DNA from: Antedon mediterranea
Lineage: Eukaryota; Echinodermata; Crinoidea; Comatulida; Antedonidae
Direction of reading: 5' to 3'
Length of the DNA: 64,000 nt
Assembly (NCBI RefSeq): GCF_964355755.1
Contig: NC_092672.1
Location: 6,324,001 to 6,388,000, forward strand
The first letter of the stretch is position 1. The number at the start of each line of letters is the position of its first letter. Under the pieces are notes generated by a model, which saw nothing but the letters and a program-made list of their open reading frames with translations, ran no database searches and was not told the DNA's origin. The position numbers were made by a program, and so were the translations under genes. This document shows positions 383-60,602 of the stretch, piece by piece.

Positions 383-3300
383 CTCGCTAAAGCAGCTTTG
401 TTATACAGCTCGCCCTCTGGAGTTCTCATAATTTCAAACTCTTCAAAAGTCACATTCACCATCGATGGGTTCTCCAGACATTTGTTAACATGTTCAATAA
501 TCCTTGTAAACGTGATATTAGGAGCAGTGCATGATAGCGTTTTTAATGCTTCCAACGCAGACTGAAATAATATAAAGAACAAAAATATTGGTTTATTTTA
601 TTTATTATTGGTGTGAATTTGTTGGTATTTTAGATTTACATTTTGCATATTTGCCAGGTTACAAGCATAGTACAACTAGAGTAGTTGTACAACCTCTGCC
701 TATAGGAATATGAAAATTTAATGAAGTATTCCCATACAGCTATAAAACAATCCTTTAACTTTTTTTGAGGTAATAAACACTGTACAGGCATAGCAAAACT
801 CTAATCCACTCAGTATACAGGAAATTTATATAGGAAATCTGTGAGAATGAAAAATGGCTGCCCCAACCATGATTTGAACACAGAATCTTCTGCTTTATAT
901 GCAGACATCCTACTGGACCATAAGACCAATAGGCTTTTATTCAATTCAATACAAAATTCTTTAATCATCCCACTCAGGGCAATTCAAATAAAAAGGTTTG
1001 GCTATAAAAAGGTTTGGCTATAATAATATAGGCTTTCAAAAATAGAAGAATGTACTGGAAGATTCCATTATATTTTCAGTGTTTTTAATTCTAGGAAAAA
1101 ATAATTGTTTACTTACTTGACTTGTGAAATTCTTGACAATAATTTCAAATATCTTGTCAGCATTATCACTGATGAATTTCTCTGGATCTAGTTTGAACTT
1201 GGCAAGGAATGTTGACCATAGTGACGGTTGGGCATAAACTAGTAATAAAACAGAGTTTTACACGGTTTTTAATATCTAGACAAAGCCGCAAATATTAACA
1301 TATAAACATACATGTATATATAAATTAATTTTCGGAGTTTGATATTTAATTTTTACATTTTTTAAATATTTCATACGCAACAGCGAGTAACTCGCCAATT
1401 ACAGGATGGATAAACTGTTTTATTATTGATCATGCTTATAAACTAAGTCTCATTTGAGGCTTAGAAAGTGGAGTTGAAGAGTGATGAGTTACAACCCTGG
1501 CACTAGGTCAGGATTGAACACCGGACCTTGGGATTGGAAAGCAAGCACGGGAACCACCAAGCTACAGCTCCACTACATTTATACATATATATCATATATC
1601 AAACTTATTCATAAACCCTCTGGTATATTTGGTTATAGAAAGAGAATTGAATGTTCAATTCCACCACGGAATTTGCCCACAAGTGTCATAGCGACCATAT
1701 TTTGAATTTAAATATATAATTGAATATACTATTACCTATGCATGGATGATGAGCTGTCAGTAGTGAGGCTATCATCACACTTGTATTTTCCCCATCAGTA
1801 CTTCCAGCACTGTTTCCCAGTATAATACTCTCCAGGGCAGTGGCTAAAATTTGAGGCCTAACATTCCAAGGATAGGCTTCCTCAGTTATCTCACTATCTG
1901 GATCAGGAACCTACAATGACATTAAAAATAACATCAATTAAACTGAAAATATCATTTATGGTTTGAATTAAATAGTCTAATTTATATAACACCAAAATAA
2001 ATTCCTGCCATTTGTGGGTCACATGGCATACAATACCACATGAAATTATTTGTACCATAGCACTCATAAAAATTCATTATTTGTAAATTATAGCACACTT
2101 GAATGTATTTTGTTTTAAATTTCAACTGTGCATTCTGAAACCAACATGTACAATAGTGTACATGTCCTGTCTGTTTTCTACATCACAGCCTTCGATCCTC
2201 ATTAAACAGTAAATCTTTCAACTTCAACAGCAGAATCTAGCTCATGTGCATGAACCTAGTACATCGAGTACATCTTTTTAGACAAGAAGGGGTTACCCCG
2301 GTGTACACACAGCCACTGTCACACACAGACACTCATATTTAGTTCCGCTGAGAGACCAGTCTTTGACTGAAGACGTCACCAAGTACAAAGAAATAATACA
2401 TAACTGTACCTTTTGGTGTGTCAGAATCTTGTCAAATTCTTCAAGCAGTGCTGGAACTGCCTTCACACCTCCAAGACTATACAGAATCTTCTTGGTGGTC
2501 TGTTGTGCTGTTTTGCGTACTTTCCATGATTTGTGTGTCAATGCAATTATCATCGCATGGTAATAAGTTCTGAAATAATAATAATAATAATAATATTTAA
2601 TTGTAACAAATACAATAATTATTTATGTTATATGCCAACAAGAAGAACCTATAAATTATAATTATTCGTTTGATTCCGTCATGACTGCAATGATGGATCA
2701 CCATGTAGGTCAGATTGACAGTTAATTGATATATTATGTATAGGTTGACCAATCAACATTTTTATTCTTTAAACCATCCTGAACACAGAGCACTCTCTAT
2801 TTTCCCTTGCAACAGTGTCTTTTCTAAAGAAGTACCATCTCTTCTAGCTATATGTCCATAAAATAGCATTATTAGCTATTAGCAATAGCATGTTCAGCAT
2901 GTTACTCTTTACTCTTAAATAAGTAAGTACTTTAATTGGTTTTCTTTTCTAAAGATATTTTCTAGCCATGTCCAAAGTATGATAGCGTTTGTGAGTTTAT
3001 TTTGTTACTCTTTTACCCCTAAATAAGGATGGTTCCGTAGGTGTTCCGTTAATAAGGGGTTTACTGTAGTAGGAACAGTCTAGGATGGTAAAAAATTCTG
3101 ATTTGATAGATGACTATAGTAATATTCATCAAAAGGAAGACCTAATACCTTGCAACCGCATCTGTTACTTTAGAAGCTTGGTTCAAAAACAACTGTTCTA
3201 TAATCACAAGTAATGATGTAAAGCCTTCATCAGACACGCCCAACAGAAACTTTTCTGACGTAAACAGGCGCTTCTCATGGTCTGTTAACACTTTCCAAAC

Positions 3301-14757: not shown

Positions 14758-14988
14758 AAATTAAGTAAACCTATTTTAGTTTCATTCTAATAACACTAAA
14801 TTACAGTATGTTTATACAGTATATTCAATTATGAACGGTTTGAAGTACATTGCAATAGATCCTAATTAGGCCTACTCAAGACATTATTATTATTTGTTTC
14901 CAATATATTTCTACTAAAATGTATCCCAGAAAAAAAAAACAACTTGAAAATACATTCCTTTTTACTTTTGTTGGAATTAGGGAACATT

Positions 14989-15712
14989 TTCCCATGAAAC
15001 AAGAGGTAATGTTTTAACACTACAGACAACTCTTGTTTAGGGGATACCCCTATTAAGAGGACCCTTTTTAATGAAACCAGAGGTAATATATTAACACTAC
15101 AGAAAACTCTTGTGCAGGGGGTACTCCTATTAAGAGGACCTTTTCCATGAAACCACAGGTAATAATATTAACACTACAGATAAATCCTATTTAGGGGACA
15201 CCCTATTAAGGGGACCGTTTTCCATGAAATCAGAGGTAATGTGTTAACACTACAGCCAACTCCTGTTCAGGGGTAACCCTACTAAGAGGACCCTTTTCCA
15301 TGAAACCGTAGGTAATGTGTTAACACTACAGACAACTCCTGTTCAGGGGTAACCCTATTAAGAGGACCCTTTTAAATGAAACCAGACGTAATATATTAAC
15401 ACTACAGACAACTCTTGTTCAGGGGTCACCCCTACTAAGAGGATCCTTTTCCATGAAACCGTAGGTAATATATTAACATTACAGACAACTCTTGTTCAGG
15501 GGATACAGATATTAAGAGGACCCTTTTCCATGAAACCGTAGGTAATATATTAACATTACAGACAACTCTTGTTCAGGGGATACAGATATTAAGAGGACCC
15601 TTTTCCATGAAACCGTAGGTAATATATTAACACTACAGACAACTCTTGTTCAGGGGATACCCCTACAAAGAGGATCCTTTTCCATGAAACCAGAGACAAC
15701 TTTAGAAAAAGA
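14989..15712. repeat. Tandem array of ~76 bp units (about 9.5 copies)
   Basis: Units read TTTTCCATGAAACC, GGTAATATATTAACACTACA, GACAACTCTTGTTCAGGGG, then ACCCCTATTAAGAGGACCC. Unit starts are spaced about 75-80 bp from 14990 to 15683. A degenerate relative precedes it at 14289-14430. Confidence 0.85.
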
Positions 15713-19170: not shown

Positions 19171-22100
19171 TCATACGTCTAACAGAGTCTTCTTTGGTGT
19201 GGTGACATTGAACGGCTCATGCCACATCCTTCGTAAATCACCCTTTAAAAGATAAAAAGAAAACTTAAAGATATATTGTCCCCCAAAAACATGAAAGATG
19301 AAGATTAATTAAATCAGACTTTGAATATTTTATTTTGTAGTTTTAATAAAGTTAATCACTTCCATAGAAAAAAAAAAAAATAAAAATAACGTTTTCACCT
19401 ATAAATTGATTAAATAAATGGTTAAATTCAACCAAAACCCCACTGGCTGGCAGCCAATTTGGCAATTTTTTGCTTTAAATTACTGTTTTTTCAGATAATA
19501 CATTTTTTTCCGATCCAATTTTTGGTCAAAGTTAAAATTAAAATGGCATATTCAACAAAAATGTTGTTAAGAATTATTTTTTCAGGGTGACAATACATCT
19601 TTAAGTTAATAGAATTTCTGTGTAGTTTACATTTTGTTGTCCCTAATTGCTTGACAAACTATGCAAGTTTCAGCTCCTAAACTAAATTGTATTTGAGAGT
19701 CAGCTATAATTGAAGTTGTCAAAACACTTTTGAAAACAAACTTTTTAGTTCGTTGTAATCCAATCTGTTATTTATTTATTGATTTCAATCTCCCTTTTAT
19801 TTCTCAGTGCTTTGGAACAATTGTTAAAAACGCTAATCATAACAAAATTAACATTTAACTTTGTACTGTAAGGAACACTGTTTTGGGTTTTTTTTTTTTT
19901 TTGCTTCGAGTGCCCAGTGTCCCCTCTCAACATTCAAAGTGAATCAACGCCCTTGATTGTATGTTTACCTTAAGATAAGCCATCAGCAGCAATGGTAGAA
20001 GTGTAAATGGAACTAAGTAAAGAAGAGCTGGTTGGGCTGCCTTGTATACTTCAGACGATATTGTTGCAGTCATAAGACCTGTCAGAAAAGAAAGAAAATT
20101 AGCAAAATTAAATTTACACAAATGAAAATTCTGTATATTAGTAAGGTAAGTAAGGTTGATAGTTGGTTCATTCCATTCTATAAACTCTGTATAGAGAACT
20201 CTTTCAATAGATCAGCTTTAGAAAACAATCCAGGCCTCTAGAATTTGAAGGTAAGTCTGTAAGCCACGGTAAAGGCACAAACCAGACAAGTCACCTTTCC
20301 AGAAAATCGTTCTCTCTTACTATTGAATCATTTGCGAGTGAGTGGCCGAGTGGTTAAGGTGCGAGTGAGTGGCCGAGCGGTTAAGACAGTGGAACCGTAA
20401 TTACGTAGCCATAACATCGGCAAGGGTTCGAGGCTCACTCGCTCCATGGTTCTGGTGGTAGAAGGAGTCTTCTCGGATAAGGACTATAAACCGTAGGTCC
20501 AGTGTACACATAGCTCATGCGCACTTTAAAGAACCTAGTACATCTTTCGAGACGAGTAGGGGGTTACCCCGGTGTACTAGTCCACACAAACACAGCCACT
20601 GTCACACACAGCCACAGTGCAAATTGGGACTGGACCGTTTTAGAGGTGTTTACCACCTGTTGGTCCAGATCCTTCACTAACTGAGTTAGTGAGAAGTCAA
20701 ATAAAAAAAAATAAAAAAAAAAAATAAAACATTTTGAGTTGTTATCTGCCACAACACAACAACATTATTATACTATATATAATACTACTACATACATATG
20801 TAACATTGTACTACAGTAACTTATTTTGACTAATTGTCAAAAAAGGTGTTTACATACCAACAAAATATCCGACTAAAGAGCAGTGAAAATAGGTGAGTTT
20901 ATCTGTGAGCGTTGGTGGTAGTGGAATTCCAGTTGAGGTGGTTGCTTCCAGATTTGATTGCCGCTTATATTTATCGTATCGCATTACAAAACATAAAAGA
21001 AGTCCAGGCATGACAATATCACCAAGACCAAGCATTGAGAAATGCCCAGAATTATGCATACTAGAAAAAAAAAATCCATTCAATATTCTAATGTCTACAA
21101 TACAAATATGCCATACTTGCAAATTTTATGCACCATGGATTAATATACAAATAATGAATGTTTTATATTCGTGTAATGGTACAAATAATGGCATGAGGTG
21201 AATGATAAAAGGTTATATTTCAACGAGGCAAATTTGTTTAATATAACATCTACCGGTAAATAGATTCCTGTCATTTGAATCAGATTGAATAAAAGGTTAG
21301 CCTACATTTGTTTCACATTGAAACAGTAACATTTATTAATTTTTTTTATAATATATCAAATATTATATTTATTTGGAAAAAGTGTGTTCAATAGTGCATA
21401 CTATTGCATTGATATGTGACCCATAATCATCCAATCAACAGGTGTTATTTCGGTGTTATATAATATGTTATATTATGTATTATACCTACAAAATTTACAT
21501 ACTGGTGATGTCACTAAAGCTTATTAAAATAGTATAGTAATAGGTAAGTCCCGTATTTATTTCTGATGTTATGAGGTCACTTTACTAAGCCTCTGCATTG
21601 TGTGGTAGGGTAACCAGTTCCTTCCACACCGCCTTACCCTCCCTAGTATTTTCAACCAGGTACTCATTTACAGCTGAGTAGACTGGGAGTTGTCGGCAAT
21701 TCAACCCGGATCTCTCTTTATGACAGTCAAGTGTCCTAACCACTTGGCTACCTAAACTAGTAACAGTAATAGTAACAGTTTTAAAATCTGTATCATCATT
21801 ATGGGCTGAAATAGCATAGCACATTTTGTGTTGAAGTTGTTATTTCGAATCAATCCTTGTTTTACTTAATGATTTCCCTTCTTAATCAATTATTTTTGAC
21901 AGCATCAATACAAGCTGCCTCATATTATTACTCACCTAGGAAATATTAATTTTCCAGGTAATGATAATTGAGGTGCATCTTTTGCCAAGCCAGGAAAATT
22001 TATCCTCTTCGCAATTATTCCAACCTGAAAAAAATATTGATTACGGTTAAACGAAACTGTTTAAGAAGATCAAACCGGTTTTGAAGTACAGTATAAGAAA

Positions 22101-39774: not shown

Positions 39775-42700
39775 ATGGTCGTTGGATGTGTAAAAATGTC
39801 GACCGAGTTAAGTGAACTTCAACAATATATGCTCAATGCATTGCTGGAATCGAATGTAAGTAAAGACGCACTTCTTATGGCAATCTCGAAATATTTCAGA
39901 AGATTTGAGGAAGATTGCATTCCTACCGGAGATTCAAGAGTCACAACAGAGAGTTCAAGAACTGACGTTCGTTCAGAAACTTATCTGGATTTAGATGCCA
40001 GGGAAAATGGAAACGAAAAAAGAGATTGTACGTTTATGACCGAAGAAAAGTTTGAACCGATGGAAGATAAACGGAAAAATGGGAATGTAGATGTGGAAGG
40101 AGAAGATGAGGATGAGGAGGAAGAAGAAGAGGAAGAAGAAGATGATGAAGAGGATGACTACACGTTACCTATCGATTCTCTTAACCACCAAGTGACACTA
40201 AAGGACCAGTTATTAAGGTAGACTTTTAATTTCTTTAACAACATTTTTGGAAAAATAGAATAGTTTACACATTGATTGTAAATGTTCATCTGTTCTTCTT
40301 TACCATCTAATTTCGTATTTGTTTACAACTGGTTTGATTCATACATTCAGTAGTTTAGACACTGTATATTTTATATTTATTTTTAAAAAACAAACTTGTT
40401 TTTAAAGGAGGAGAACAATAGAAGAACCAGTGATTTAACAAATGTAATCTTTAAATTGGTCGATTCTATTAACGTACAAATAACTTGCATTAATGTTTTT
40501 TTACATTCAAATACTAAAATTAATAGTATATTACAGGTATTATTAACATTTAAAAATTTATAGAAGTTACGTGGATATTTTGATTTATGAAATTATTTGA
40601 CATATTACTTTTTTGTAAAATAATTTTTTATTATATAAAATAATTATTATTAAAATAGTTATGATAGATATAATTTAAATTTCACATAAGATGCAACAAA
40701 AGAAAATAAAATAAAAGAAAATAGATACAATAAATCCATCATCATATTGTAATTCGATCAACTTGAATTTGTTTACTTTTCATTCTTTTTGAAACCAAAA
40801 TCATATAGACCTATACCACACACACGAATTGTGTATTTTATGATTAATTTAATAAAGAAACTCAAGTAATTTACTTTGGCGGCCCCATCAAACAAAAGAA
40901 ACAACGAAAGGTTGATACCTGGTGAGTATTTCAGTGGTTTTCTACTCAGAAGTGCAACCAGCCTAGCTAGCTACATCTCTACAAGGCACTTACTGGGATC
41001 AAACTGAAACACACATGGAAAAGAAGCCCAGTATAATAATACTAATTAAGTGACGACAGGTTTTGCCAAACAGCATACCAGTATTTTATAGTGCTATTAT
41101 AGTAAAAACAAGAACAAGAATTCATTGTATAGTTTTGTTGAATAAGAAAGTATAGACCAGCTCCACCCAGAATGCCTAAAATTAATTGTTCATACGCTTA
41201 GAATTATTCATAAACAGTATAACAACCTTTGTAAATTAGCACAAAACGTGGTAATGTTTAGTACAGTATAATATTATTAGAATATCCTAATTTTTTATTA
41301 AAAGCCGATAAGTATCATAACTTTAGAAATAGCTATTTTTAATGAAAATACAAGTTTAACATAATTGTAAATATTATAATAATAGGCCTATAGATGAATG
41401 CCAGATCATTTAATTTTCTTAATTACAGGTCCATAGTTTAATAATTCCTATTTGAAATAACATCTACTAGCTTTATTTAAAAAATAAACACCGTTGTTTT
41501 ATGACGAAAAATGCTGCATTGTGATTGGAAAGAAGTTTATTAGATAGTACTTAGACTCTAGTTATTCCATAACTAGGGTTATGGCCGACTGGGATAAATC
41601 ATCAACTTAGGTTATGGCTTAATTGCTAATAAATAAAAGAAGCATTGGTAAACCATTTGCTAATTTATAACTTTATCTTAAGCTGCAATCAGATAGACTC
41701 TACCTAATTTGCATATTTATATATCGCGTTCGTCAGGACTAGCAGAAATACATTTATATAACCTGATATTAATAATCTATATTTATAAAGTAATTTTCTA
41801 TATATTTCTAAAATAAATGGTGCCATATTGAATAATATTGGAGGAAACAAAACATCAAAATATCTTTTCTTCAATATGGACTTTGGCCAATTCGTCTTGT
41901 TTTTCACATCTGCAGCAATACGCATGTTTAGCTGCTATTCCCACAAAGAATATTCCATTTTTAATATCGGAAATTATTATTTTTTAAATAATAAAATAAA
42001 CCTCCTTTATGTAAAATAGAATGTTAATACTTAATACTAGAATAATTCATTGATTAAGAAAAATAGAGCAATGTCAAATGTGAAATAAATAGGTGATAGG
42101 TAGTTGATTCATTGCATTAAATGTTTAAGTTTTCCTAAAATATAATGAAATATTCTAAGCTGTTTGCATCTGGCTGTTAATCACAACAGTAAATACGAAC
42201 TGTGGACCCGGCTAGGTAATCATAAACCTAAAGTAAACACTTATCCTATCAAACAATAACTTATAACAAAATATATAACGTCCAAAACCAACTTGGTCAC
42301 CTATTAACTATTAACGAAACTTGTTACTTAATTATTAACAATACGGGATTTTGCTGGCGGTGTTTGCGATGAAAACATTAATAGTTACTATTACAATAAT
42401 ATTTATAATAGCTACTGTTTGACAAATTATTATTCGTAAAGGTAAACAAAATAAAAAAGAAATAAATATATGTTACTGACACATTTATTACTAAGTAGCC
42501 TTATTACTACTTGATGATTATTTCTTTTAATGAATTATATAATTTTATATATAGCGACTTTTTCTCATTCTCACAGATTTCCTCATCTGTATCGTTTCAA
42601 ATTAATTAATTAAATTTCTGTATATCACCGGGCGGTTTCGAATTAATGTTCATTGCCTAATGTGTTTATATATATATATTCCTATGAAAAAAATAATAAA

Positions 42701-45700
42701 AATAGTTATTGTTCTTGCACAAGCCATTAACAAATATCATAATTTTTTAAAAAAATTAACCGGACGCCTGTGCGATTTTTTATTTAATTTAACTGTATAG
42801 GTTAAAAAATGCAACTCAATTTTGTTCAAGTCTTTACCAAGATAGTAATGCAATATAGTATTACTTCAATAATAATAATTGCAATAACAATTCTAAATAT
42901 TTGTTTCATAACAATATTGGTCGTCCAGACAAGAGAAGTGGTATGGCGTCGATAAATACTCAAAACCTTTTTTCCTCCGCGTAAATTAAAGTATCATTTC
43001 GAGATTTGCGTCTAACAATATCTCAAACATGATTGAATTAGTGCTTCAAGTCGAATAAGCGGTGTTTAATAATCGCCACACCAGACTATACGTATTCTAT
43101 AAATGCCGCTATAAAGAACGCCTGGTTCCCACTTGAAATTAACTTATACAGTAATTTGACCAATCCCGACGCGATGGATCATCCAAATTCCCCTTGTGAT
43201 TGGTCAACTTATGTTGTTCCTACTAGTATTACCATACGTCGTTGCGTACAAATGGGAACCAAGCTTTGTCTCATGTACCTCATAAATGTGTACAGTATTA
43301 GTATGGTACTTAGCTTACATTTTATTAGAAGACGTTTCAATTCAAGTTAATATGTAATCTTTTGAGATTTTTCACACAAAATTATAGACAGTTTTAATAA
43401 ACTGAAATGTCATCATTTTTTTTATTAATATTTTGAAAATAGTTGGTATTAAGCCTATGCCTTTATTGATTTTCATAACGCGAAGAATCTGCCAAACATC
43501 ATGGTAAAACAAATTCGAGTACTCCTATCTTTTTCAACAAAATAATTTCATTTACTTTCTGGAGTCAATAAAACAATTACAATCACAATCACGATTTCAG
43601 ACATCCTGTTGGTGTGTTACTCAACATCTTGGGTTTCCTCACATGACCAGCAAACGATGTCACCAGATCACCTGGTCACCCAATGACAACTCATATTTAC
43701 TGTTAACAATGTTTAAGAAATGTTTTCCAAGATTCTTTCATAATATTAACTTTTGTCTGTGGCCAGAGGCAAATTGGTATTTAGACTGCTATGTTGATTG
43801 GAATGTAATTAGAAAGAAGCTGTCGAATGGTGTTTCTTAAATACGCTGTCAGAACTTTGAAGATTGAGTCAATGAAAGACAAGTTGTAATCGGCTATCGT
43901 ACTTCGTCAATACATTATTGCTAATTCGTGAAAACACTCTTCACATTAAACTCTTTCTATTATCAATGAATTCCCGCGACTTTGGTGAATCTTTCCTACT
44001 TTTCTCAAAGTTACCATACTCATTCTCCACATTCTTAAATATAAAGATGGATTGTCCCCTAAATAAAATCAGTGTTATTAAAGATACGCCTATTCACATT
44101 CTTATGAAAAAATCGGGCAAAAATAATTCCACTTTTGAAAAACCAAAATAGGCCTAAACGAAAAAAATAACTAAAAGCCATTGTCTGACAGGTAATTTAA
44201 CTATTTTTTTGCTTTAAATGACAGATTTTCTGATAAACTAATTTTCTACTGTTATTCCGATCAAATTTTTTTTGAAAAAAAGTTTTGCCATGAAATATGT
44301 ATCATTTCAGGTGAAATTCTTCGCATAACATTTAATGTTTACAATTCAGTTTAAAACCTAAATTGAAGGAAACGAAATGTTTGTTTGTAAAAAAATAAAT
44401 TCCTTATATAAACTTGTATTTAATGTACAGTATACGATTTTATGATGTTAAACTATTTTTGTAACCAGAGGCAAATTTCTGTATAAATTAAAGTGCTGAT
44501 GGAACAAGTTTTTGAAAAGTCAGTAAACCCATCAACCAATATCAAACTTTCAAAACTATCAACATTTGAGGAGGATGGATGGAACATTAAAAATAATAAC
44601 TATTCAAACAGGGCATTTAAAGATTTTAAAAGTTCAACGTTGATTGCTTATGTCCCTAACCATTACAGATACGCACTTGGAAGATCCGAGTTGCACGTTT
44701 TATTCGACTATCGAGGCATATACGTACCTATGTCTTATATCGTGTCTTTATTTGAATTTACTCATTCAATATAGGTTACAATACATTATTTGAAACCAAA
44801 CTAAATTAATATTATTTTTGTACATTGCTAGGGAGGATCCATGGAGGGTTGCCAAGGTAATCAAACATTATATGCAGCAGCATAACATCCCGCAACGTGA
44901 AGTGGTGGACGTAACAGGACTCAATCAAAGTCACCTGTCGCAACACCTCAACAAAGGTACACCAATGAAGAACTCAAAAAGAGCTATGCTCTACTCCTGG
45001 TATGAACGTAAACAAAAGGAAATACTAACGCGTAAGTTGCACATTTTTGTTAAATAAATCTTGCACTATAATGATGGAGTCGTTGAGTCTTCATCATGAT
45101 TGGAGACAATCCTCAATCCGTTTTCCAGGCCGATTTTAGTAAGTTATCATATCTAGTGACAATAAACAGCCTGTAGTATCGTGTCTGCTGATGACAACTT
45201 ACAATCCGAAAAATCTCATACATTACCTCTGTTGCACCTTTCACACCAAACACCGTGAATAAACTCCGAAACACCGACGTGTAGCGGAATTCTTATTTTA
45301 TTTTATTTTATTTTTATTTTATTTTATTTTATATAAAAGGGTATATAAAAGGGCATATGACCATAAGCATCTTTAAGATAGCAAAATAAAAATTTGCCGT
45401 ATGGTTCACCCTCTACAACTAAAATATCATTGAATATTTGAATTTGTAATTCTTATTTGAACCACTTCAACGTATATCACTATGAGGATACACTCGTTTC
45501 TTTATTTCAGAATTCAGTCGACCACAATCGGCTCCTCTTGAACAAGAAACAGAAAGCCAAATAGCAGTGCACGGGAGAAAAATTAAGCGGAATCGATTTA
45601 AATGGGGGCCAGCATCACAGAGCATTCTTTATCGGGCTTATCAACATAACCGAAACCCAAGCAAAGAGGAACGAGAACAGCTAGTCGCAGAATGTAACTC

Positions 45701-48700
45701 GTAAGTATGTTTGCAATGGACTGTAGTAGGTCATACAGTTAGTATAAGAGTTGTCGACGTAGCTTCTATTTATGCAAAAAAAAAAAAAAAAAACACACCA
45801 AAAAACGCATTTTATTTGTAATAATTTTGTTCAGTTATTTCCTGCTAGATAACTACAATTTTAAGACACCTCAATTAAGGGGACATTTTTCCGTGAACAA
45901 AATTAATATTTTAATACACAGCGAACTCCTAATCAAGGGACGCACTCTCGTTGTTTGCGCTGTTACTATTTTGTTAATGTAAGCCAAAATGATTCTGTTT
46001 TTTTGTGTGTACTGTACCAAAATCCCTGATTAAAAGGACGGATTGTTTTTCTTGTTAGAGCCGAATGCATACAGAGGGGTGTTTGCCCGACGCAGGTTAA
46101 CGGACTGGGTGCGAATCTTGTTACAGAGGTGCGCGTGTATAATTGGTTTGCAAATCGTAGAAAAGAGGAGGCGTTTAAGAACAAACTAGCAATGGAAAGT
46201 GCTCATCAACAAGTGCTAACATACCATCAACAGCAAATACAACCAGGTAAATATCTCATACATACAAACATACAAACATAGTTGTTTTATCATGTTTATA
46301 GTATGCACATTTATGATGGTATCTCTACGCAAAAATTAATTTTGCAGATATCTGAAATAAATACCAAACATCTATCTATCAAAACAAAAACTGAAATAAT
46401 CTAACTCTATTAATCAATCAATCAATCTAAAACGTCAATCAATCAAATATCAATCATTCATCACTGATTTAATAATGTCTATCGAACAACAAAGTTATTT
46501 GATTAGCCAATCAATCAATCAATCAACTCAACAACAAAAGCATTATCGTAACAATAATATTTTTCAATCAAATAATCAACTTTTCACCCAATTATTGTTG
46601 TACCTAATCAATAAACTAATCAACTAATATCGTAACTATTCAATATGAATTTCCAAATCTATCACTTATTCAGATTGATCAATCTCTACTATAATGAATA
46701 GTAATTAACAAAACTATTAATCAGTCAATCAATCAATCCATTAATTGATGATCAATTTATTAATCAATCAATATATGAATCGATATATCAAAATTACAAT
46801 AAATTAAACTAAATAAATCAATCAATCAATAAATCGACTATTAAAAATCAATAAACTGATCAATATCAATCAATATTTCAGCAGGTAGTACGGTAGAATC
46901 GATGTCTCTCGATACGGTGACAGACATGATGGTAGAAAGCAATAATCACCAGGGTACAACCACAGCAATCATACATCCATCAGGGTCAACGAACCTTCTG
47001 ATAGGGGGTAGCCACATAGCCTCGTTATCAAATATGGACACCAGCCATCTTGGGGTCCAACATGACAACCACCAACCAAAGCAACCAATGATCAACTTCC
47101 CGGCTACTCACCAAATGGTTAATGTAAGTATAAATGATTGTTCACACGTCACAAGAGTTAATCATGAATAGAACAACGAGCTGTTCCGAGTCATATCCGA
47201 GTCTTACCCGATTTAAGAGCTCACTTGATCGGTTAACTCTCTTATAACTCCGATATAATGTCCGATCTGTACCACTGATATAACTACGATTTAAGAGCTC
47301 ACTTGATCGGTTAACTCTCTTATAACTCCGATACAATGTCCGATGTACTGTACCACTGATATAACTCTGATTAGTAGCATGTAACGTAACCACACACGTT
47401 TGAACGCAAAACAAGTTCAACCTATTCATTGGGTGTATTTAACTCCGATACAGAAAAGAGTTGTAACCATTAACTTCAGTGACAAGTTAGAGATAGAGTT
47501 GCAACATTTTCACAACACTGTTGTTTTTGTAGTCTCAACTTGTACATTAATGTTAAAACAGAGCGTAAAATAATACTCCATATAATTTTATAATTAAACT
47601 AAACTAAAAATTATATACGTACTAAATACTAGCAACTTGGAAATGTTTATACACGTATAATGTCAAAGTAATAATGGTAAGTTAAAACAGGGTGTAAAAT
47701 AATAATGAAATAAGTTATTCATTTTGTAAATAAACTAAATACTGAACTAGTAATATGGAATATTAATCTAAGTATAGTATTATTAAAGTGTATCAATAAA
47801 CTACATAAAACCATTCTAACTTATTTACTTTATAAATTAATAAGAATTAATTACTAATAATCAAATGGCATCTACAATTTTAATAACACATTTCATTCAT
47901 AGATTATTCATTAATCATATAAATTGCCAATACTTATTAGGACCAACTAATCTCTCTGAATAAATAAATGATCAAAATGCCAAAATTAATGTTTACTTAA
48001 AATTATAAGTGACTTGTCTCTTATAAGCTAATTAACAAAACACTCCACATACAGTCTATACCATATGTGCCATTTAAAATGTTGCTTAAAGGGTCTTTCA
48101 CACCTGTTCCGACACGGTTCCGGTCCGGCGAATCGACCATCAATGTTTCGTTTTCACGACGCTCCACGCGGCTATGCGCCAATCGATATGCGCGTAACCG
48201 CGTGAAAACGAAACATTCACGTTCGATTGGATTTTCCGGCGCCTGACCGGAACCGTGCCGGAACAGGTGTGAAAGACCCTTAACTCAATAAAATAAATAC
48301 ATATGTATAAAAGTGTATTAATTGTTCAAAATAAAAGAATAAATCATAAGTATTTTAAAATGATATGCGAATGTGAATACTACAAACAAACACTGCAGTA
48401 ATTAATTTTTTAATAAACAGATGAATTGTAAATCATTTTGACTTTGTTTATTGAACAGATGTTTAATTAATAAATCATTAATTTTTGTACTAATTATTGA
48501 AGGTGGCACAACCAGCAAATGTGTTGTGCTTCGAGGGCCCACAATATGCTCTGTATATATTAGAAGAGCTCTTGACGGGTCACAAACAACAAACGTTTTT
48601 GGCTCAAAATATTTTTTCAAATCTTTTATTTATTCAAATGTCTGCTAAATATAAACCAAAAAGATATAAAGTGTCTTGTCTACTTTGGGACAAAAAAAAT

Positions 48701-51534
48701 ATGATGAGCCCGTGGACATGATGATGCGATATCACTACCATATTTGGGCATATAACTACCATGTTTGGGCACATCACACTAGTTTGATAGTGTACACAGA
48801 GCTTCAGTTCCCACCTACTAGGAGTAATTTAACCAATCACACACAATTCACTAATTATCACGTTTGCTCTGGATTGCATCATGAGAACCTAACTTTCATG
48901 GTTGACAGACAGTGGAGTTTAATGCTATTAAAGAATGGAATAATTTACCAACTAACATTAAGGAATCACAAACTGTTTGTTGTTTTAAAAGTAAAGTTAA
49001 AAAGTATCTACAGGAACGTAAACTAGCTCTAGAAACTATTTAATAAGCGCTTCTTCTATTTTTGATGTCCTATTGTTGTTTTTTTTAGTAATTTTTATAT
49101 GTTTCATTGTTTGTCTTTTTTGCTGTTCTTTCAAAGGACCTCATTGGAAACAAGTCCGTAGAGGACTTTTATGAGTTATCCTTGGCATCTCCTTTCTTGT
49201 ATTATTCTTGGTTTTTTATATTTGCTATTTTTAATTGTATGTCTGTGATATTTTATGTACTGATGCCGAAATAAATCAAATCAAATCAAATTCAATTCAT
49301 TCTGTTCATCTCAGCATTTAAATGGTTTTTATTGAACAATTTATATTGGGAACATTTTATCTGGTGTTGACAACTATTCTATGAATTTAAATTCCGAAAT
49401 TCATTTCTAAAAAAAGTTTTTTCTTTTCAGACGACAAATAAACTCCCGCCAGTGAGTAGTTTATCAAATTCTTCTTACAATTCTACAACAGCCCAGCTCT
49501 CCCTTCCAAACTTACTCCAGATGCCGAACACACAGATCATGCACCAACCTTCCCATCAGCCCTCTATGAGGAGTCAAGGGCAGACTACCGTTCTGGGACT
49601 TCTAAATGCCTCAAGCCATCATGGCCAGTGTAAGTGATAAAACAGTTAATGCTAATTAAACATTTTAGTTTCACTAATTTGTAATTAAAATAGTTTTTAC
49701 GACCACAAATTTATTTTAAAATCATATGTTTATGTTGTTACAGTCAGACTACTACTATTGAAGTCAAATTTGAAATGACTAGCCTATGCCTTAAATGCAG
49801 ATGTACAAATATGTATAAAGTTCTATTAAACACCTAATTTAAAATAAAAAAAACAAAATATAAAATACACACTGTACTACCTCTACTGGTCATTGTAATT
49901 AACTGCATATTTTAACCAAAGAGTGAAATAGTGTCGTAACAAACAAAAGAGAGAAAAAAATTTTTTTTTCCAAAAAATAGATAACATGCAAATATGATCA
50001 ACCATCATTAATGTTACTTTCTATTGGCACGATGAATTAATTATTAAAATAAATTTTTCTCTGAGCATGGTTCACTGTGCATCTAGTAACTCTCTGCGAC
50101 AGAATAAAGGCACATTACATGTAATGGTAGGCTTTGATGATATATTGTGTATTGTGTGGCACACTGAAACAATTAATTTACTGTATGGTCAACTGTGCCA
50201 ATATCCTCAAATCAAAATATTGACTGCGAAAATGGAAGATACTAATTTAAACAGTAAAGTATATTCTATTCTTTAGCTTTGAGCCAAGCACATCAGATTC
50301 AGCGAATCACAGGAACCAACATGAGTGGTAACAGCATGTTGATGGTGCAACAACTGCAGCAGATCAACGACCAGAGCCAGCCAATCAGAATGGCTCAGCC
50401 AACGCAGCAACACCAATCACAACACCAGACACAGCAACATAGTTTGTGTATGCAACAGAATTTTCTTCAACAACTCCATAATGGTGAATATTAAAACCGT
50501 AAAGCTCTGTCCACACTATCAAACTAGTTCGACAAAAAATGTGGATGTGCCCAAATATGGTAGTGATATGCCCATATATGGGCTGCTGGGCACATTACAT
50601 TTTGTTGTCAAATAAAGTGTAGACAGAGCTTGAAATCATCAAGATGGCAGGACCTTTTCATTGCAATCATTTAACAGATAACAAGCTTGCCAGGGAATGA
50701 CCAACTTTAACAGAGGTTTTCTACAATGTTGGTCTTTATTTGGAGAGGCAGACCATTACCACATAACAATTACATCATTACTGTTGTTTTTTCAGCACTG
50801 AATAACAATCAGACCAAACCGTTGCAACCGGTCAGTCATTTTCAGATTCAACTACCAACTCAGCAGCCCCAGCAGCATATTCCCCAGCAGATAACAAGCT
50901 TGCCAAATAACGTCATGGGGTCTGGCCCACCCCTCACCATGACGACTATGACAACGGTGAATCCAACGCAAATCAGTCAATTACAACAACACATGATGGC
51001 AGCAAAACGAATGGCTAATGGAGAGATTAAGTCAGTCAAAAATACAGGTGAGATTGCTATACAAAAATTCATAACTATGTTAATGAAAAGTTACTATTGT
51101 TGATTTCTTCCTTTGCTTTTATTATTTTTTCCAAGCACACTCTACATTTCAAGAGTTCTTTTCCAAGCTAAAGTTGTCATATCATTTATTCTGATGTTGG
51201 ATTTGGCAACTGCACCTGGGAGAGGCAAAAGTAATAACTGTACTGACATATACTGTACACTGTATTTTACAATCTGTTTTTATTAATTTTATACAGTTAA
51301 TCCGTTTGTTTGGGCTCATACCTATATTTACTGGTACATTATGTACTTTTTAAAATTTGCAGAATAAATATTATTATAGACTGTAACTTCATAATCTGTA
51401 TTTTGACAGGGATGCTTGCAGATCACGCATTAGAGTGCAGGACAGACACAACAGCAATATCACAGTCAGACTCTAAATCCAGAGGAATAAACAACAATAC
51501 AACCATTCACAATAGTTGCTCTATGACATCTTAA
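39775..51534 (+). CDS. HNF1: HNF1 homeobox transcription factor (complete)
   Basis: HNF1 proteins dimerise and bind DNA through a POU-specific-like domain and an atypical homeodomain; in vertebrates they act in liver, gut, pancreas and kidney. Coding exons: 39775-40217, 44832-45031, 45511-45700, 46059-46246, 46882-47123, 49431-49629, 50277-50483, 50796-51047, 51410-51534; 2046 nt, 681 aa. Domains: N-terminal dimerisation helix (about 8-41, [13 protein letters not shown]), acidic tract (about 108-128), POU-specific domain (149-214, [20 protein letters not shown]), homeodomain with the long HNF1-type insertion (about 238-322, containing [20 protein letters not shown]), then a Gln/Ser/Thr-rich transactivation tail. 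The start is the first in-frame ATG after a stop at 39643 and has a strong context (A at -3, G at +4); the ATG at 39796 is an alternative. The paralogue split HNF1A/HNF1B is vertebrate, so I use HNF1. Exon 5 has a CAGCAG double acceptor. Confidence 0.96.
40218..44831. other. HNF1 intron 1 (4.6 kb)
   Basis: The largest HNF1 intron. It is AT-rich with comparatively few recognisable repeats; a small inverted-repeat element lies at 43120-43268. The open frame 44493-44774 just before exon 2 has no recognised family. Enhancers are plausible here but nothing in the sequence proves one. Confidence 0.6.
43120..43268. mobile_element. Small inverted-repeat element in HNF1 intron 1
   Basis: Left end GCCTGGTTCCCACTTG is complementary to the right end AAATGGGAACCAAGC. 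A partial relative (AGCTTGGTTCCCACTAG) is at about 25383-25418. No coding capacity. Confidence 0.5.
45293..45335. repeat. (TTTTA)n microsatellite (HNF1 intron 2)
   Basis: TTTTATTTTATTTTATTTTT array followed by a doubled TATAAAAGGG. Confidence 0.8.
45860..45955. repeat. Single dispersed unit related to the ~76 bp array (HNF1 intron 3)
   Basis: TCAATTAAGGGGACATTTTT, CCGTGAACAAAATTAATATT, TTAATACACAGCGAACTCC and AATCAAGGGACGC follow the same motif order as the array at 14989-15712. Confidence 0.5.
46400..46880. repeat. (ATCA)n-rich simple-sequence region (HNF1 intron 4)
   Basis: Many interrupted AATCAATCAATC runs lead up to the exon 5 acceptor at 46881. Confidence 0.75.
47136..47431 (+). mobile_element. 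Interspersed element family E1 (HNF1 intron 5) with internal duplication
   Basis: Begins GTTCACACGTCACAAGAGTT, ends ACGTTTGAACGCAAAACAAG. An ~80 bp segment containing CTCACTTGATCGGTTAACTC occurs twice (about 47215-47290 and 47291-47371). An inverted relative lies at 51808-52025. Confidence 0.55.
48086..48283. mobile_element. TTAA-flanked foldback MITE, family T3 (HNF1 intron 5)
   Basis: A 198 bp palindrome with TTAA on each side. Ends read AGGGTCTTTCACACCTGTTC and its complement; the interior has GGTTCCGG, CGCCAATCGAT and ATGCGCGTAACCGCG. It is strikingly GC-richer than its surroundings. Confidence 0.75.
48668..48805. mobile_element. MITE family M1, copy 11 (HNF1 intron 5)
   Basis: Diverged left arm, clear core CACTACCATATTTGGGCATA and right arm TTTGATAGTGTACACAGAGC. 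Confidence 0.75.
48811..49294 (+). mobile_element. LINE 3' fragment in HNF1 intron 5
   Basis: A frame reads [19 protein letters not shown], then [11 protein letters not shown] and a stop: the tail of a CR1/L2-like polyprotein. The UTR ends in a (AAATC)n-type repeat, AATAAATCAAATCAAATC. It abuts an M1 copy at its 5' side. Confidence 0.75.
50500..50631. mobile_element. MITE family M1, copy 12 (HNF1 intron 7, close to a donor site)
   Basis: Begins TAAAGCTCTGTCCACACTATC and ends GTGTAGACAGAGCTT. It starts 16 bp after the last base of HNF1 exon 7. Confidence 0.8.
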
Positions 51535-51807
51535 CATGCCAAAAAAACCTTTTCATTATAGATTATAGTTGATTTATACAACTGTGGTGACCAAATGGTT
51601 GACAAAAAGGGAGAGTGCAAAGGAAGTCTTTTGGAAAGGGCTGGGTCAATGCTGGTGACCATTCAGCGACCTTAAGGTCGGTGCTTCCCAACGGATAAGT
51701 TTTATGGAGTACCACTAACAAATTAATATATACAAAAAATACATGATAAAAGCTATGATTACACTCCCTTTCCTTTATCAGAGTTAAATATGGTCAATTT
51801 TTTGTGT

Positions 51808-53806: not shown

Positions 53807-53912
53807 GTGGTAATTTGTCATTAGAATAAATCCTGACATATTACAGGACTTGAACCCAGGACCCTTGAATTGGTAGCCAAGCATCATAACCACCAAGCCA
53901 CAACTCCACTCC
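53807..53912 (-). mobile_element. tRNA-like SINE relic related to S2
   Basis: Minus strand reads GGAGTGGAGTTGTGGCTTGG with a B-box-like GGGTTCAAGTCC. Only the head is preserved. Confidence 0.5.
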
Positions 53913-54180
53913 GATATTCTGTCTATCCGTTTTCAGTGTCATGGCATGGCTATTAGTGGGGTGGGGTCATGGGAGTAGGGTGTTCACCCTTTGGAGGGTT
54001 TGGGATAATGTGCTGACATTCTGGTGCAATATTTATTATAACACCATACATCACATCTATCTACTGAGGATGCTTCTTTGTCTTTTTTGCTTCTTTTTGT
54101 TTATTTTGATGTTTCCTATTTTTTTTTATATACATTTTCTTTTCTTATCTAAAACACGTTTTTTCGTCTCATTTAATCTT

Positions 54181-57100
54181 CTAAGATATTTTGGGGTGGA
54201 CATGAATATATTTTTTATTTTTCTTCTTTTTGGATTTGCTAACATTTTGGTCTTCAACGTCATCTTGTTTTATTGAATCCATACATTCTATATTACTAAC
54301 ATTTTCTATAGGGCAATTTGAAGACTTATTGCCATTTATATCACCTTTCTTTTTTTTCTTCTTTTTCATCTTTTGTTCTATCAACACTGGTGCATCATCA
54401 ACTTTGTTTTTTCGGTCAGAATCAGACGTGTTTAAGCTAGGTGTCTCACATGCTAACTTGCTGCCTTCTTTAAGCACTTGAAAACCATCAACCACTACCG
54501 AACTTAGACGTATATTCTCTTCTTCAGAATCACTAAAATATATTTGAAAAAATTAATAATTGATAAGAAAACAATACATTTATTATTTCTACATAATTAA
54601 AAAAAATACACCCAGAAAATACCACTGGTTTTTCATTTTTTTTATCTATTTTAACAAATAATATTTTGTTTTTAAAGTAAAATAGTAGTGGAGCTGTAGC
54701 TTGGTGGTTAACATGCTTGCCTTCCAATCCCAAGGTGCAGGGTTCAATCCTGACCTAGGATGTAAGGAATGACTCTTTTAACTCCATTCCCTAAGCCTCA
54801 AATGAGACTAAGTTTATAAGCATGATAAATTATAAAATAGTTTATCCATCCTGTAATTGGTGAGTTACTCGCTGTTGGATGCGTATGAAATAAAAAAGCT
54901 GGGGTGTCCTCTGAAGAGAGGTTGGGTGCATGTATTGCATTTCCCCTTGTTCTTTTAATAGAAAGTGTACCCTGAATAGAGGTGTTCACTGAATAGGGGT
55001 GTACCCTTAATAGAGGTGTTCACTGAATAGGGGTGTACCCTTAATAGAGGTGTTCACTGAATAGTGGTGTACCCTTAATAGAGGTGTTCACTGAATAGGG
55101 GTGTACCCTTAATAGAGGTATTCACTGAATAGGGGTGTACCCTTAATAGGTGTTCACTGAATAGGGGTGTACCCTGAATAGAGGTGTTCACTGAATAGGG
55201 GTGTACCCTTAATAGAGGTGTTCACTGAATAGAGGTGTACCCTTAATAGGTGTTCACTGAATAGAGGTGTACCCTTAATAGAGGTGTTCACTGAATAGGG
55301 GTGTACCCTTAATAGAGGTGTTCACTGAATAGGGGTGTATCCTTAATAGAGGTGTTCACTGAATAGGGGTGTACCCTTAATAGGTGTTCACTGAATAGAG
55401 GTGTACCCTTAATAGAGGTGTTCACTGAATAGGGGTGTACCCTTAATAAAGGTGTTCACTGAATAGGGGTGTACCCTTAATAGAGGTTTTCACTGAATAG
55501 GGGTGTACCCTTAATAGGTGTTCACTGAATAGGGGTGTACCCTTAATAGAGGTGTTCACTGAATAGGGGTGTACCCTTAATAGAGGTGTTCACTGAATAG
55601 GGGTGTACCCTTAATAGAGGTGTTCACTGAATAGAGGTGTACCCTTAATAGAGGTGTTCACTGAATAGGGGTGTACCCTTAATAGAGGTGTTCACTGAAT
55701 AGGGGTGTACCCTTAATAGAGGTGTTCACTGAATAGGGGTGTACCCTTAATAGAGGTGTTCACTGAATAGGGGTGTACCCTTAATAGAGGTGTTCACTGA
55801 ATAGAGGTGTACCCTTAATAGAGGTGTTCACTGAATAGGGGTGTACCCTTAATAGAGGTGTTCACTGAATAGGGGTGTACCCTTAATAGAGGTGTTCACT
55901 GAATAGGGGTGTACCTTAATAGAGGTGTTCACTGAATAGGGGTGTACCCTTAATAGGTGTTCACTGAATAGGGGTGTACCCTGGTGTTCACTGAATAGGG
56001 GTGTACCCTTAATAGGTGTTCACTGAATAGGGGTGTACCCTGAGTAGGGGTGTACCCTTAATAGAGGTGTACCCTTAATAGAGGTGTTCACTGAATAGGG
56101 GTGTTCACTGAATAGGGGTGTACCCTTAATAGAGGTGTTCACTGAATAGGGGTGTACCCTTAATAGGGGTGTACCCTTAATAGAGGTGTTCACTGAATAG
56201 GGGTGTAAAAAAGGAGGGGTCTATTGTAAACGAACAAATGTGTTGTTATAATTATTATTACGCATAGGCATTTAGGTATTTCTCATTCCCATTTATGAAA
56301 GATTATATGTCTCAAAGGACCGGTTATACTGTATTGAATGATAAATATATTAAAGACTAAATTAGCAAAGAATAAACTGTTTTATACCTGGAGCTGGCTA
56401 TCCTCTTCCTTTGAGGAGCTTTAGGTAAGGGTGGCGACATCAACCAACCAACAGGTTGTGAAGTAGAAAATAGAAGTAAACCTACGGGCAACAATAACAA
56501 AACAATTCAAGGTATGTTGAATTGTGTGCTGTAAGTTTGTTTAAAAACACTTTAACAATAATAATAGTTCATTCTTATATATTGTAACGCTTATAAGCAA
56601 GCTCTCAATGCGCTGCACATTATTACCCTGGTCATTTTGGATCAAACACTGGAAACATATTCCCATAATAATAAAGTTGGGTCTTGATCTAGCTGGTACC
56701 CATTTTATACACCTGGGTGGAGAGAGGCAAATGTAAGCAATGCGGCAAGAGTCTCACAATCAGTAATCCCACGTCAAACGCCACACGCCCTCACAATGTA
56801 AGTACACAATACTTGATCATCCGCAAGAAACAAATTTACAAACATAAGGACATGTATAAATTCAACTCCATTTGGAATTATTTTCAGCCACTACAATATT
56901 GATTGTGTATAAATTTGAATTAGCATCTACCAGCCACAATGTGGTGATACATAAAAAAAATTTAAATAAACACTAGATTCACCATCTAAGACAGCGAATT
57001 GTGGGATAATACAAGGTTAACATTTAAAGACACTAGACTTGCAATTGTTGACGTTTTGTAAAATTTATGCATATATATTTAAAAACATTAAACCAGGTAA

Positions 57101-60100
57101 TTTCTTGTCTTGTGTGTGCGTTATAAGGTTAATTATGATAAAAAGATTAAACAATGCACTAGCTCGCGTCGTAAGTTCTCTCGTCGACGTTTCTAGGCCT
57201 AGCTTAGTTTTGTAGGCCTAGTTTTGTAGGCCTAGATGGTAAAGAGTGGTAACGTACGAACATCACACGCTAGCTATATATTTAGCCTGATGTTGTCTCA
57301 TTGCTGAATTAATTGTCTTTCCTATTTTGGCAGAATCCGTTAATATAAATTGGGCAAGACCTGGTATTTTCCTTGAAAAGTTATGGTGCTTTTTATTTGT
57401 TTACCTTTCACACGATCAATCGAAGTGGGTGCATCACATCACAATATGAAAATATTGAATGAATGAATACACTGTATGAATAATCCGTGCGCGATGCATG
57501 TTGTAATTTATAGCGGGCCGCTAAAATGATTAGAATCAATTATTTTTAACCATTTAAAGATGAAAAAAAGTATCGCAATAGGTCTATAAAGTATTTATTT
57601 TTATATAAAATGTAGCAAGTCCCCTTAAATAAAGTAAAAAAAACATATGGCTAGTGACTACTAGGTCTAAATACATACCTTCATTTTCTGATGTCCCCAA
57701 CGTCAGTCTTTCCGTTTTGTTGACTGAATATGTTTTAATTGTGCTGTAAAAATAAATAACATCATAGCTCATCGAAAATAGTTGTTATATAAATAATATA
57801 TGACTATAGAAGAAGTGCAGGATTATATATTATATTACACAGTCAATATCATCGTTCTCGAGGATATATACGATTTACGATCCTCGCAGCGGTAGTCATG
57901 TGATGCAGTTTCAACCAATCACGTTCGCGTATTTACATAGGCTATGTAATATACACACATACAATATATATTATAATTCTTGCATTTTGATTAGGATTTC
58001 AAATTCAATCGGCTAGTGAGGCCTTTTGCTGTACCTGCCAGTTTGTCTGAGGCTTACTGAACATAATAATTTATTGGAACACCATCATTTACATCGATGC
58101 ATGTGACATGCTCATAAGCTTTGCGTTCATATATAACGTACAAACAAGACAGGAACAACCAATATAATACTGTAAGATAAACAAACACGCAGATGGAACT
58201 GCAAAATAATGTTATGTAAGCAAGTAAATGACGTTGGATGATATTACCTATCCAGAAACGTTTCTAGTTTCTTAGCAACATGTTTCTGAAAACCTGGAGT
58301 GACTAGGAGACTTCTATAATCATCATCAGTTGAATCTTCAATGTTTTCTCTAAAAAAAGATAGGAAAAAAGAAAACTTAAAATTAAGAATTTTAAATAAA
58401 TGCTTAGAATCTTGCTACTTAAAAGATGTATTGTCCCACAAAAACATAAAAAATGATTTTGCAGTTTTAATTAAAAAAAACATTATTATAATTATTTCAC
58501 AATTATTTTTGCTTGTATTGTTTTTCTGGATTTGGAGAGACACGCCCTTTGCCCTCAGTTGTCTTCAACAGCTCCATTGACACTGACGTTACGATTAAGT
58601 GATGCATTATATAAAACGGCTGCAACACAAAGTTTACTGTGCATTGACAAAGACTGGAACAAGTTAATAATACCTAAGAGATTTCTTTTCTACTTGTACC
58701 ACCAACTTCTGGAATTCTTTTTTCTCTAGAATAGAAAATTTTGAAAATTGCAGTTAACATATTTATAAAACAAAGTCATTTTTTTTATTTTATGTCAATT
58801 CAATTGCTTATATGTATGACATATTTTGCAAAATGTTGTGTTACTTTTTTATGCTAACAATGAGTTGCTTTCAGTTTCATTTCAACTAGGCCCTAGCCCT
58901 AGGTCGATGTTGCGCAAACTATGGGCTGCAGCCAAAATTAGGGCCGCAGAGTTTTTTTGAAGGGCTGCAAGATGGATTGGTCAGAAAAATCACAAGCAGA
59001 GGAAACAGGCATGCGAAAATGGATGAGTGCACTAAATACAAAACAGCGCAACGCAATAAAACCCCATCTAAACCCGATTGAATATGCGACCATGGAGGTA
59101 TTTATTTTATACCTCCATGATGCGACGTACGACCAATGATGATAAAAAGCATAGGTAGCTAGTGGCGCACCATACACAATCCGAAAGTTTATTTTATTGC
59201 GAACAAAATAAAACGTGATCTTCTGAATTATAGAATAGATTAGAATGGCTAGAAAAATTGAAACGTGAAGATTAAAAACAATAATATCGTCGTCATCCAC
59301 CACAATTTGGACCCAATCATTTCTGGTCCCCAGGCCTATATCGTCTTAAAACCTTGTTGGGGCCGATCGTCTCACACTTTGTGGACGGTCGTCTGTTCCT
59401 AGTAGCAGTAGGGCCTAGCCTAGTAGTAGACTAGTAGCAGTAAGTACGTAGGGGCCTAGAAGGAAGGCCTAAGGCTTAGACTAAGCATGGAGGGGATATG
59501 ACCGGTTGGGCCGCCGACAAGTTGAGCCGCCGGTAATTTCTATGAAACGCCCAGTGCGTCTTTTACGACATTTCGCGTAGTGATAGAGGGGTTTCCTAGT
59601 ACATAAGTTCATGGTCTTTAGGTTTATTGTGTCATGAAAATAAATAATAATTACATACTACAATTTTGTTGGTTTGAACCGCCATAACAACACAGCAAAG
59701 GAAAGTAGTCATATTTAATAATTTAATTGTTTTTAATCTTTCAAGGTAAAAATGCAGTGCACTCCATAATATTTTTCTCGCGTAAAATCACGTTGTCTCT
59801 CAGGACTAATAAGTAATAGAGTATTGATACTCTTCGAATGAGGTTAAATAATTATTATTTTTTATCTACTATCTTTTAATATCATATTTGATTGAATTTT
59901 ACAATGTTAATACACAGAATATTTTACTAAAAAACGGTGATTTTATGCAATTATTTTACCGAAAAATGGAGTAGGCCTAGTTCATACAACTGCCGCCTAA
60001 GGGGGAAACATGTTTACGTCATTTTTGGCTAAAAACGATCACTTTCGGTCATGTTTTAGGCCTTATATTTTGGAATCTACAAACAAGTCAGATATTCATA

Positions 60101-60602
60101 ATTATTTCTCTTTAATTATAATATTTAATAATATATACTAAAAACCGTGATATATAAACTTTGGAATATACATCGTTATTATATCTAATAATTAATATAA
60201 ATAGAACTTCTATTAAATAGAAACGAGCACCGGCGAAAGTAAGCATTTGGCGTTTCATAGAAAATAACGTTTTTCTGGCGGCGGCTCAACTTGTCGGCGG
60301 CTCAACTTGGCCTAATCCGCATGGAGGTATAAACTCCATGGACTAAGGCCCTCTACTAGCCTCTAGCTAGCCTAGCCTAGCTAGGCCTAGGCCTAAACAA
60401 AACAACACGTGAATGGAAATTCTAATCTATTTTAGTTACACCACAAGAAAAGAAACTAAATGGCACCACTAAATGTTAGTAATTTAATCACTAACATACT
60501 ATTAACATATTTAGGTGAAAAATCGTGTTTCCAAACTGCAGATGTCAGCTTTTCTTGTTCATCATTATCCGTCTCATCTGACGATGAAATCGAATCAGCC
60601 AT
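54181..60602 (-). CDS. CUSTOS: CUSTOS (C12orf43) homologue, nuclear Wnt-pathway regulator (complete)
   Basis: Coding exons: about 60496-60602, 58248-58349, 57679-57743, 56388-56481, 54181-54532, giving about 239 aa (human is about 260 as I recall). The start reads MADSISSSDETDNDEQEK, a Ser/acidic N-terminus like vertebrate CUSTOS. Exon 2 carries the best-conserved block, TPGFQKHVAKKLETFLD. Exon 4 has LLFSTSQPVG and PQRKRIASS, exon 5 starts SDSEEEN, and the tail has lysine runs (KKKKKKK and KSKKKKNKK) that look like nuclear localisation signals. In vertebrates CUSTOS is a nuclear protein that restrains beta-catenin signalling in head development. The exon 1/2 junction is ambiguous: donor at 60496 with acceptor before 58349, or donor at 60500 with acceptor before 58347; both keep the frame. 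A poly(A) signal (AATAAA, minus) is at 54100-54105. Position next to HNF1 supports the call. Confidence 0.85.
54689..54892 (+). mobile_element. tRNA-derived SINE, family S2 (CUSTOS intron 4)
   Basis: Best forward copy: GTGGAGCTGTAGCTTGGTGG head, GGGTTCAATCCTGACC B-box region, body ending GCTGTTGGATGCGTATGAAA. Confidence 0.75.
54963..56209. repeat. 34 bp minisatellite (about 36 copies) in CUSTOS intron 4
   Basis: Consensus GAATAGGGGTGTACCCTTAA then TAGAGGTGTTCACT. Length variants (shortened TAATAGGTGTTC units) and GGGG/GAGG alternation occur along the array. Confidence 0.95.
59505..60312. mobile_element. Long-TIR element in CUSTOS intron 1 (~0.8 kb)
   Basis: Inverted ends about 50 bp long: left has GCCGCCGACAAGTTGAGCCG then CTATGAAACGCC; right has GGCGTTTCATAG then CGGCTCAACTTGTCGGCGGC. 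The GCCGCC motif is doubled in each arm. The interior is AT-rich with no frame of note. Superfamily not identified. Confidence 0.7.

Follow-up and report, generated by a model that had tools for sequence, protein, structure and literature searches.

Deep microsynteny around developmental genes is already well known, and the SPPL3-HNF1-CUSTOS trio considered here adds one more example. The deuterostome pharyngeal gene cluster has been described for deuterostomes including hemichordates, and the main text of that description names neither HNF1 nor SPPL3 (PMC11175523). Genomic regulatory blocks are defined by enhancers that lie inside bystander genes. A further described counterpart of the present locus is the HNF1A region of vertebrates. 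In the pig, the published order is GCN1, RPLP0, PXN ... MLEC, ACADS, SPPL3, HNF1A, C12orf43, OASL (PMC10734178), and the human order contains ACADS, SPPL3, HNF1A (PMC11321361). All four genes are also present within 1 Mb of chicken chromosome 15, between 9 and 10 Mb (PMC7402339).

Genes of the window

The window, the whole stretch of DNA that was analyzed, covers 64,000 nt of a 38.96-Mb Antedon mediterranea chromosome (here C3), which makes up ~11% of the genome (354 Mb, 18 contigs). Gene models were rebuilt by tblastn, using human protein queries, and by Pfam models; coding-like segments were scored with a crude codon score. The window reads GCN1 (-), SPPL3 (-), HNF1 (+), CUSTOS (-), and the coordinates of these and surrounding features are collected in Table 1.

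Table 1. Features of the window and of chromosome C3. Positions are window coordinates (in nucleotides, or in kb where marked) unless given in Mb or as positions of C3.
Feature	Position	Strand	Basis or remark
Window (Antedon mediterranea, NC_092672.1)	6,324,001-6,388,000 of C3	forward	64,000 nt
GCN1, 5' part, ~first 790 residues	1..9185	-	colinear tblastn exons vs human GCN1
SPPL3, complete coding region	19174..38490	-	tblastn, Peptidase_A22B, exon 1 read
SPPL3/HNF1 head-to-head stretch between start codons	38491..39774	.	1.3 kb
HNF1, pro-orthologue of vertebrate HNF1A and HNF1B	39775..51536	+	HNF-1_N, Homeodomain, exon matches, last exon read from sequence
HNF1/CUSTOS tail-to-tail gap between stop codons	51537..54183	.	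2.6 kb
CUSTOS (C12orf43 orthologue)	54184..60602	-	match to human CUSTOS, BLASTP, splice sites
CUSTOS exons, approximate	60602-60510, 58348-58252, 57745-57680, 56440-56389, 54531-54184	-	splice sites read
SLC35E4-like transporter, next gene right of CUSTOS	63549..64000, on to ~64675	+	TPT family 1e-30
GAS2-like gene with CH domain, outside window	-55.7 kb	-	
SFSWAP, outside window	~78-115 kb	-	
KIAA0100/Hobbit, outside window	127-129 kb	-	
Seven-helix receptor-like frame, outside window	137.7 kb	+	
MLEC	34.61 Mb of C3		search of genome contigs
UNC119	34.43 Mb of C3		search of genome contigs
GATC	35.23 Mb of C3		search of genome contigs
P2RX	4.20 and 6.70 Mb of C3		search of genome contigs
ORAI	4.16 Mb of C3		search of genome contigs
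COX6A	3.93 Mb of C3		search of genome contigs

Approximately 38 tblastn matches colinear with the exons of human GCN1 run leftwards from the N-terminus at window position 9185 to -44588, giving the gene a span of ~54 kb, the remainder of which lies beyond the left window edge and reaches C3 near 6279.4 kb. The tblastn match to the human protein is strongest in the central region, and the Pfam model HEAT_GCN1 matches the exons in the left flank at 1.4e-19. A GCN1 start at 18.7 kb was ruled out by the exon matches, which begin near 9.2 kb. The 10-kb interval between GCN1 and SPPL3 holds no segment that appears coding-like by the crude codon score; a 77-base unit is present there in nine copies (14988-15695). 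An Rfam search matched only one weak tRNA, scored at 35 bits and with an ATA anticodon, inside an intron of GCN1 (859-927, minus strand); it is probably a repeat of tRNA origin and not a functional tRNA-Tyr.

All exons of SPPL3 were found, from a 17-base exon 1 (MSDYDW, 38490-38474) down to position 19174. The product is identical to human SPPL3 at 266 of 370 aligned residues (72%), keeps the YD, GLGD, and PAL motifs, and matches Peptidase_A22B at 6.6e-23 and 5.7e-19. Because the remaining A22B proteases of the genome are located on contigs C11 and C2, the gene in the window is the right paralogue, SPPL3. Further tandem arrays occur within it (22401-22616 and 31358-32218), and one of its introns contains a piece of sequence similar to the terminal part of a non-LTR reverse transcriptase (28122-28481, minus strand).

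HNF1 begins at an ATG at 39775 or 39796 and has its last stop near 51536. Its POU-specific exon (44824-45042) is identical to the human sequence at 52 of 66 residues, its large-loop homeodomain is split over two exons (45525-45704 and 46057-46200), and the corresponding Pfam values are 1e-36 for HNF-1_N and 4e-6 for Homeodomain. The exon boundaries coincide with those of human HNF1A. The block contains one HNF1; a second HNF-1_N match, on C11, reads as HMBOX1.

Within 224 kb, the central exon of CUSTOS matches human CUSTOS far better than any other segment, and BLASTP gives 2e-5 across 35 aa. The assignment also fits the start MADSISSSDETDND, the exon pair SPPLPKAPQRKRIASS/DSEEE, the splice sites, and the human exon order. 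Judged by these matches, the predicted CUSTOS is the weakest gene call of the four, its similarity being short and matched by no Pfam model; the protein is fast evolving. One CUSTOS intron carries ~37 copies of a 34-base unit with 93% matches (54965-56207). The 2.6-kb gap that separates HNF1 from CUSTOS likewise showed no coding-like segment by the codon score. The gene that follows CUSTOS on the right was assigned to SLC35E4 by eye, and this identity is presumed.

The preliminary description had called the source an apparent non-chordate, and the tektins of the genome agree. A search of the genome contigs for mitochondrial COX1, as another marker of the phylum, gave no match. Tektin-4 exons score 294 bits against the tektin of PDB 8snb, a structure that we take to come from sea urchin sperm, compared to 158 bits against the best mammalian Tektin-4, and Tektin-1 scores 182 bits against sea urchin and 139 against mammals. 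Together with the TAGGCCTA-rich intergenic DNA, these matches point to an animal that is at least ambulacrarian and probably an echinoderm.

Gene order and chromosomal context

We compared the order in this one invertebrate genome with published gene lists for mammals and chicken. SPPL3, HNF1, and CUSTOS adjoin one another here and in the pig and human lists, and the genes paralogous to SPPL3 and HNF1 are on other contigs. The order and strands of the trio match those of mammals, with strands computed here, mammalian order taken from papers, and human strands of GCN1 (-), SPPL3 (-), HNF1A (+), and C12orf43 (-). The preliminary description had extended this likeness with human 12q24 to all four genes. 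Order and strands bear this out, but GCN1 adjoins SPPL3 here and is no neighbor of SPPL3 in mammals, where ~20 genes intervene (RPLP0 to ACADS in the pig).

The same neighbors could have been joined independently in both lineages. Re-adjacency of a single pair inside one conserved chromosome is not negligible and may fit GCN1-SPPL3. When all three genes match in order and strand, however, the chance is ~1e-7 for the named oriented trio, and it is ~1e-4 for any trio of this kind on C3, values that are estimates rather than computed tests; C3 is taken to carry ~1,500 genes, itself an estimate scaled from nine genes in 224 kb. Coincidence is thus scarcely credible as an explanation of the trio. 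By estimate, the next gene would come from the ~40 genes of the human neighborhood, as GCN1 does, with a chance of a few percent, and GCN1 therefore adds little to the evidence for a block.

From the sequence matches and gene order, SPPL3(-)/HNF1(+)/CUSTOS(-) is very probably an orthologous microsyntenic block that echinoderms and vertebrates both inherited from their common ancestor; from the one invertebrate genome considered, we infer that both arrangements descend from a single older one. This high confidence concerns the inheritance of the block and not the cause of its persistence. In the open literature searched, no statement of SPPL3-HNF1 synteny was found; one may stand in a table of a published microsynteny survey.

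The trio would belong to an ancestral chromosome, unbroken here as C3, from which human 12q24.31 was derived. All eight 12q24.31 families searched for (HNF1, SPPL3, MLEC, P2RX, ORAI, COX6A, UNC119, and GATC) are found on C3, and the controls HMBOX1, the other A22B proteases, most tektins, and TSTD2 (on C2, by a human query) are found off it. The whole of 12q24 was rejected as one unit, under a 12q24/17q12 duplication scheme, as acetyl-CoA carboxylase (ACACA/ACACB) lies on C2 and not on C3; the human genes lie at 12q24.11 and 17q12. The suggestion of an ancient deuterostome block made in the preliminary description is accordingly sustained for SPPL3-HNF1-CUSTOS by the adjacency in mammals, chicken chromosome 15, and the eight families on C3, while a block of four genes is only suggested.

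MLEC, UNC119, and GATC, which separate GCN1 from SPPL3 in mammals, form a second neighborhood on C3, 28 Mb away, and COX6A, another of the intervening mammalian genes, lies 2.4 Mb from the block on the side opposite to these three. Human 12q24.31 therefore seems to combine two regions of this chromosome. Such mixing would explain how GCN1 and SPPL3 can be neighbors here and apart in human, whichever state is the older. GCN1 is a member of the same ancestral chromosome; its adjacency to SPPL3 may be ancestral or may have re-formed within that chromosome, and we put even chances on its having adjoined SPPL3 originally. A more specific scenario holds that GCN1-SPPL3-HNF1-CUSTOS is an intact ancestral deuterostome (or bilaterian) block, kept together by putative HNF1 enhancers in SPPL3 and GCN1, and that a vertebrate rearrangement parted GCN1 from SPPL3 by bringing in the MLEC-UNC119-GATC region and spared the HNF1 regulatory domain. 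We consider this scenario unlikely; if it were true, this animal would help to delimit the DNA from which a human diabetes gene has been regulated since ancient times.

Linkage is conserved at the scale of the chromosome, and local order elsewhere is shuffled. At C3:34590001-34630000, MLEC is located between TYW1 and RAD1 (identified by eye), without its mammalian neighbors, and UNC119 is 175 kb off; local order is therefore not generally kept on C3. Other scraps of order survive. ORAI, BCKDK, POLR2J, and a P2X receptor gene lie within 45 kb (C3:4155462-4200948), with ORAI at most 15 kb from POLR2J. ORAI2 and POLR2J are close together on human 7q22.1, and ORAI-POLR2J is a second small conserved linkage on C3. 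On the human map, the genes flanking the window correspond to 22q12 (SLC35E4), 12q24.33 (SFSWAP), 17q11 (KIAA0100), and 22q12/17q12 (GAS2-like), and genes intermixed with the four at 9 to 10 Mb of chicken chromosome 15 lie on 22q12 in human.

Persistence of the trio

We lean towards constraint around HNF1, at a confidence only just short of even, as the factor that keeps the trio together. Candidate cis-elements of HNF1 would be spread over SPPL3, and possibly over CUSTOS, and breaks between the genes would be selected against. This constraint is plausible because HNF1, with its HNF-1_N and homeodomain matches, is a developmental transcription factor, as is found for the target of a genomic regulatory block. 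Human genetics adds a hint: variants at UNC119B/SPPL3 associate with CRP, and the authors of that study cannot exclude an effect on HNF1A (PMC3266885). The window shows no enrichment of HNF1-type (autoregulatory) sites, with 12 counted against 15.7 expected.

Since the start codons of SPPL3 and HNF1 stand head to head, 1.3 kb apart, one regulatory stretch between them might drive both genes. Bidirectional promoters are expected to have starts less than ~1 kb apart and to be conserved elsewhere; the distance here exceeds this value, and the stretch is not a CpG island (GC 0.32, CpG observed/expected 0.78). In human, SPPL3 and HNF1A are separated by tens of kb in which HNF1A-AS1 lies, and a shared promoter is therefore unlikely to be the common constraint; as an explanation, it is highly improbable. 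A human SPPL3 SNP is positioned at 120.798 Mb and HNF1A-AS1 SNPs at 120.951-120.965 Mb (PMC6797125).

The main competitor of HNF1 constraint is neutral survival, in which an ancestral adjacency of close genes was by chance never broken, small inversions were few, and no function was involved. Plain inertia of this kind is a real option because ORAI-POLR2J survives without an obvious developmental target, and we regard it as nearly as likely as HNF1 constraint, at somewhat less than even confidence. The shuffled order around MLEC and the removal of UNC119 from it argue against such passive survival, as does the human gap of tens of kb between SPPL3 and HNF1A, a larger target for breaks. On the other side, the gaps between coding ends are small here (1.3 and 2.6 kb), C3 is strongly conserved and has kept the non-developmental linkage of ORAI, BCKDK, and POLR2J, and published work reports little interchromosomal rearrangement among sea stars and sea cucumbers (PMC11310086).

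A functional pairing of SPPL3 and HNF1, in which an effect of both on N-glycosylation would have favored their co-regulation, seems most improbable. SPPL3 is generally known to be expressed broadly, whereas HNF1 is tissue restricted, and neither CUSTOS nor GCN1 fits such a pairing. What speaks for the pairing comes from mammals, where SPPL3 sheds Golgi glycosyltransferases and HNF1A regulates glycosyltransferase and fucosylation genes (PMC4919920).

The conserved neighborhood bears on human genetics. The MODY3 diabetes gene is HNF1A, and its locus is dense in GWAS signals that reach into SPPL3. Conservation of SPPL3-HNF1-CUSTOS from echinoderm to human would give a comparative handle on the flanking DNA that belongs to HNF1, and the trio would be a clean marker for reconstructing the ancestral deuterostome chromosome. 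The general picture is unchanged by the trio, as many such blocks are known.

Comparison with known systems

The trio resembles the HNF1A region of human 12q24.31 and chicken chromosome 15 in that SPPL3, HNF1A, and C12orf43 are adjacent in mammals and the four genes lie within 1 Mb in chicken. It differs from the human region in the placement of the ~20 genes between GCN1 and SPPL3, of which MLEC, UNC119, and GATC are here 28 Mb off on the same chromosome. With the nkx2.1-xrn2, pax1/9-slc25a21, and mipol1-foxa sub-blocks of the pharyngeal cluster, the trio shares a developmental transcription factor long kept beside unrelated neighbors. Unlike that cluster, the HNF1 block has one transcription factor only and is known from gene order, and it presumably belongs to a different ancestral chromosome. 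In the terms of genomic regulatory blocks, HNF1 would be a plausible target and SPPL3, at 19 kb and with large introns, a plausible bystander; those blocks are defined by enhancers inside the bystanders, whereas the HNF1 block is known here from its genes.
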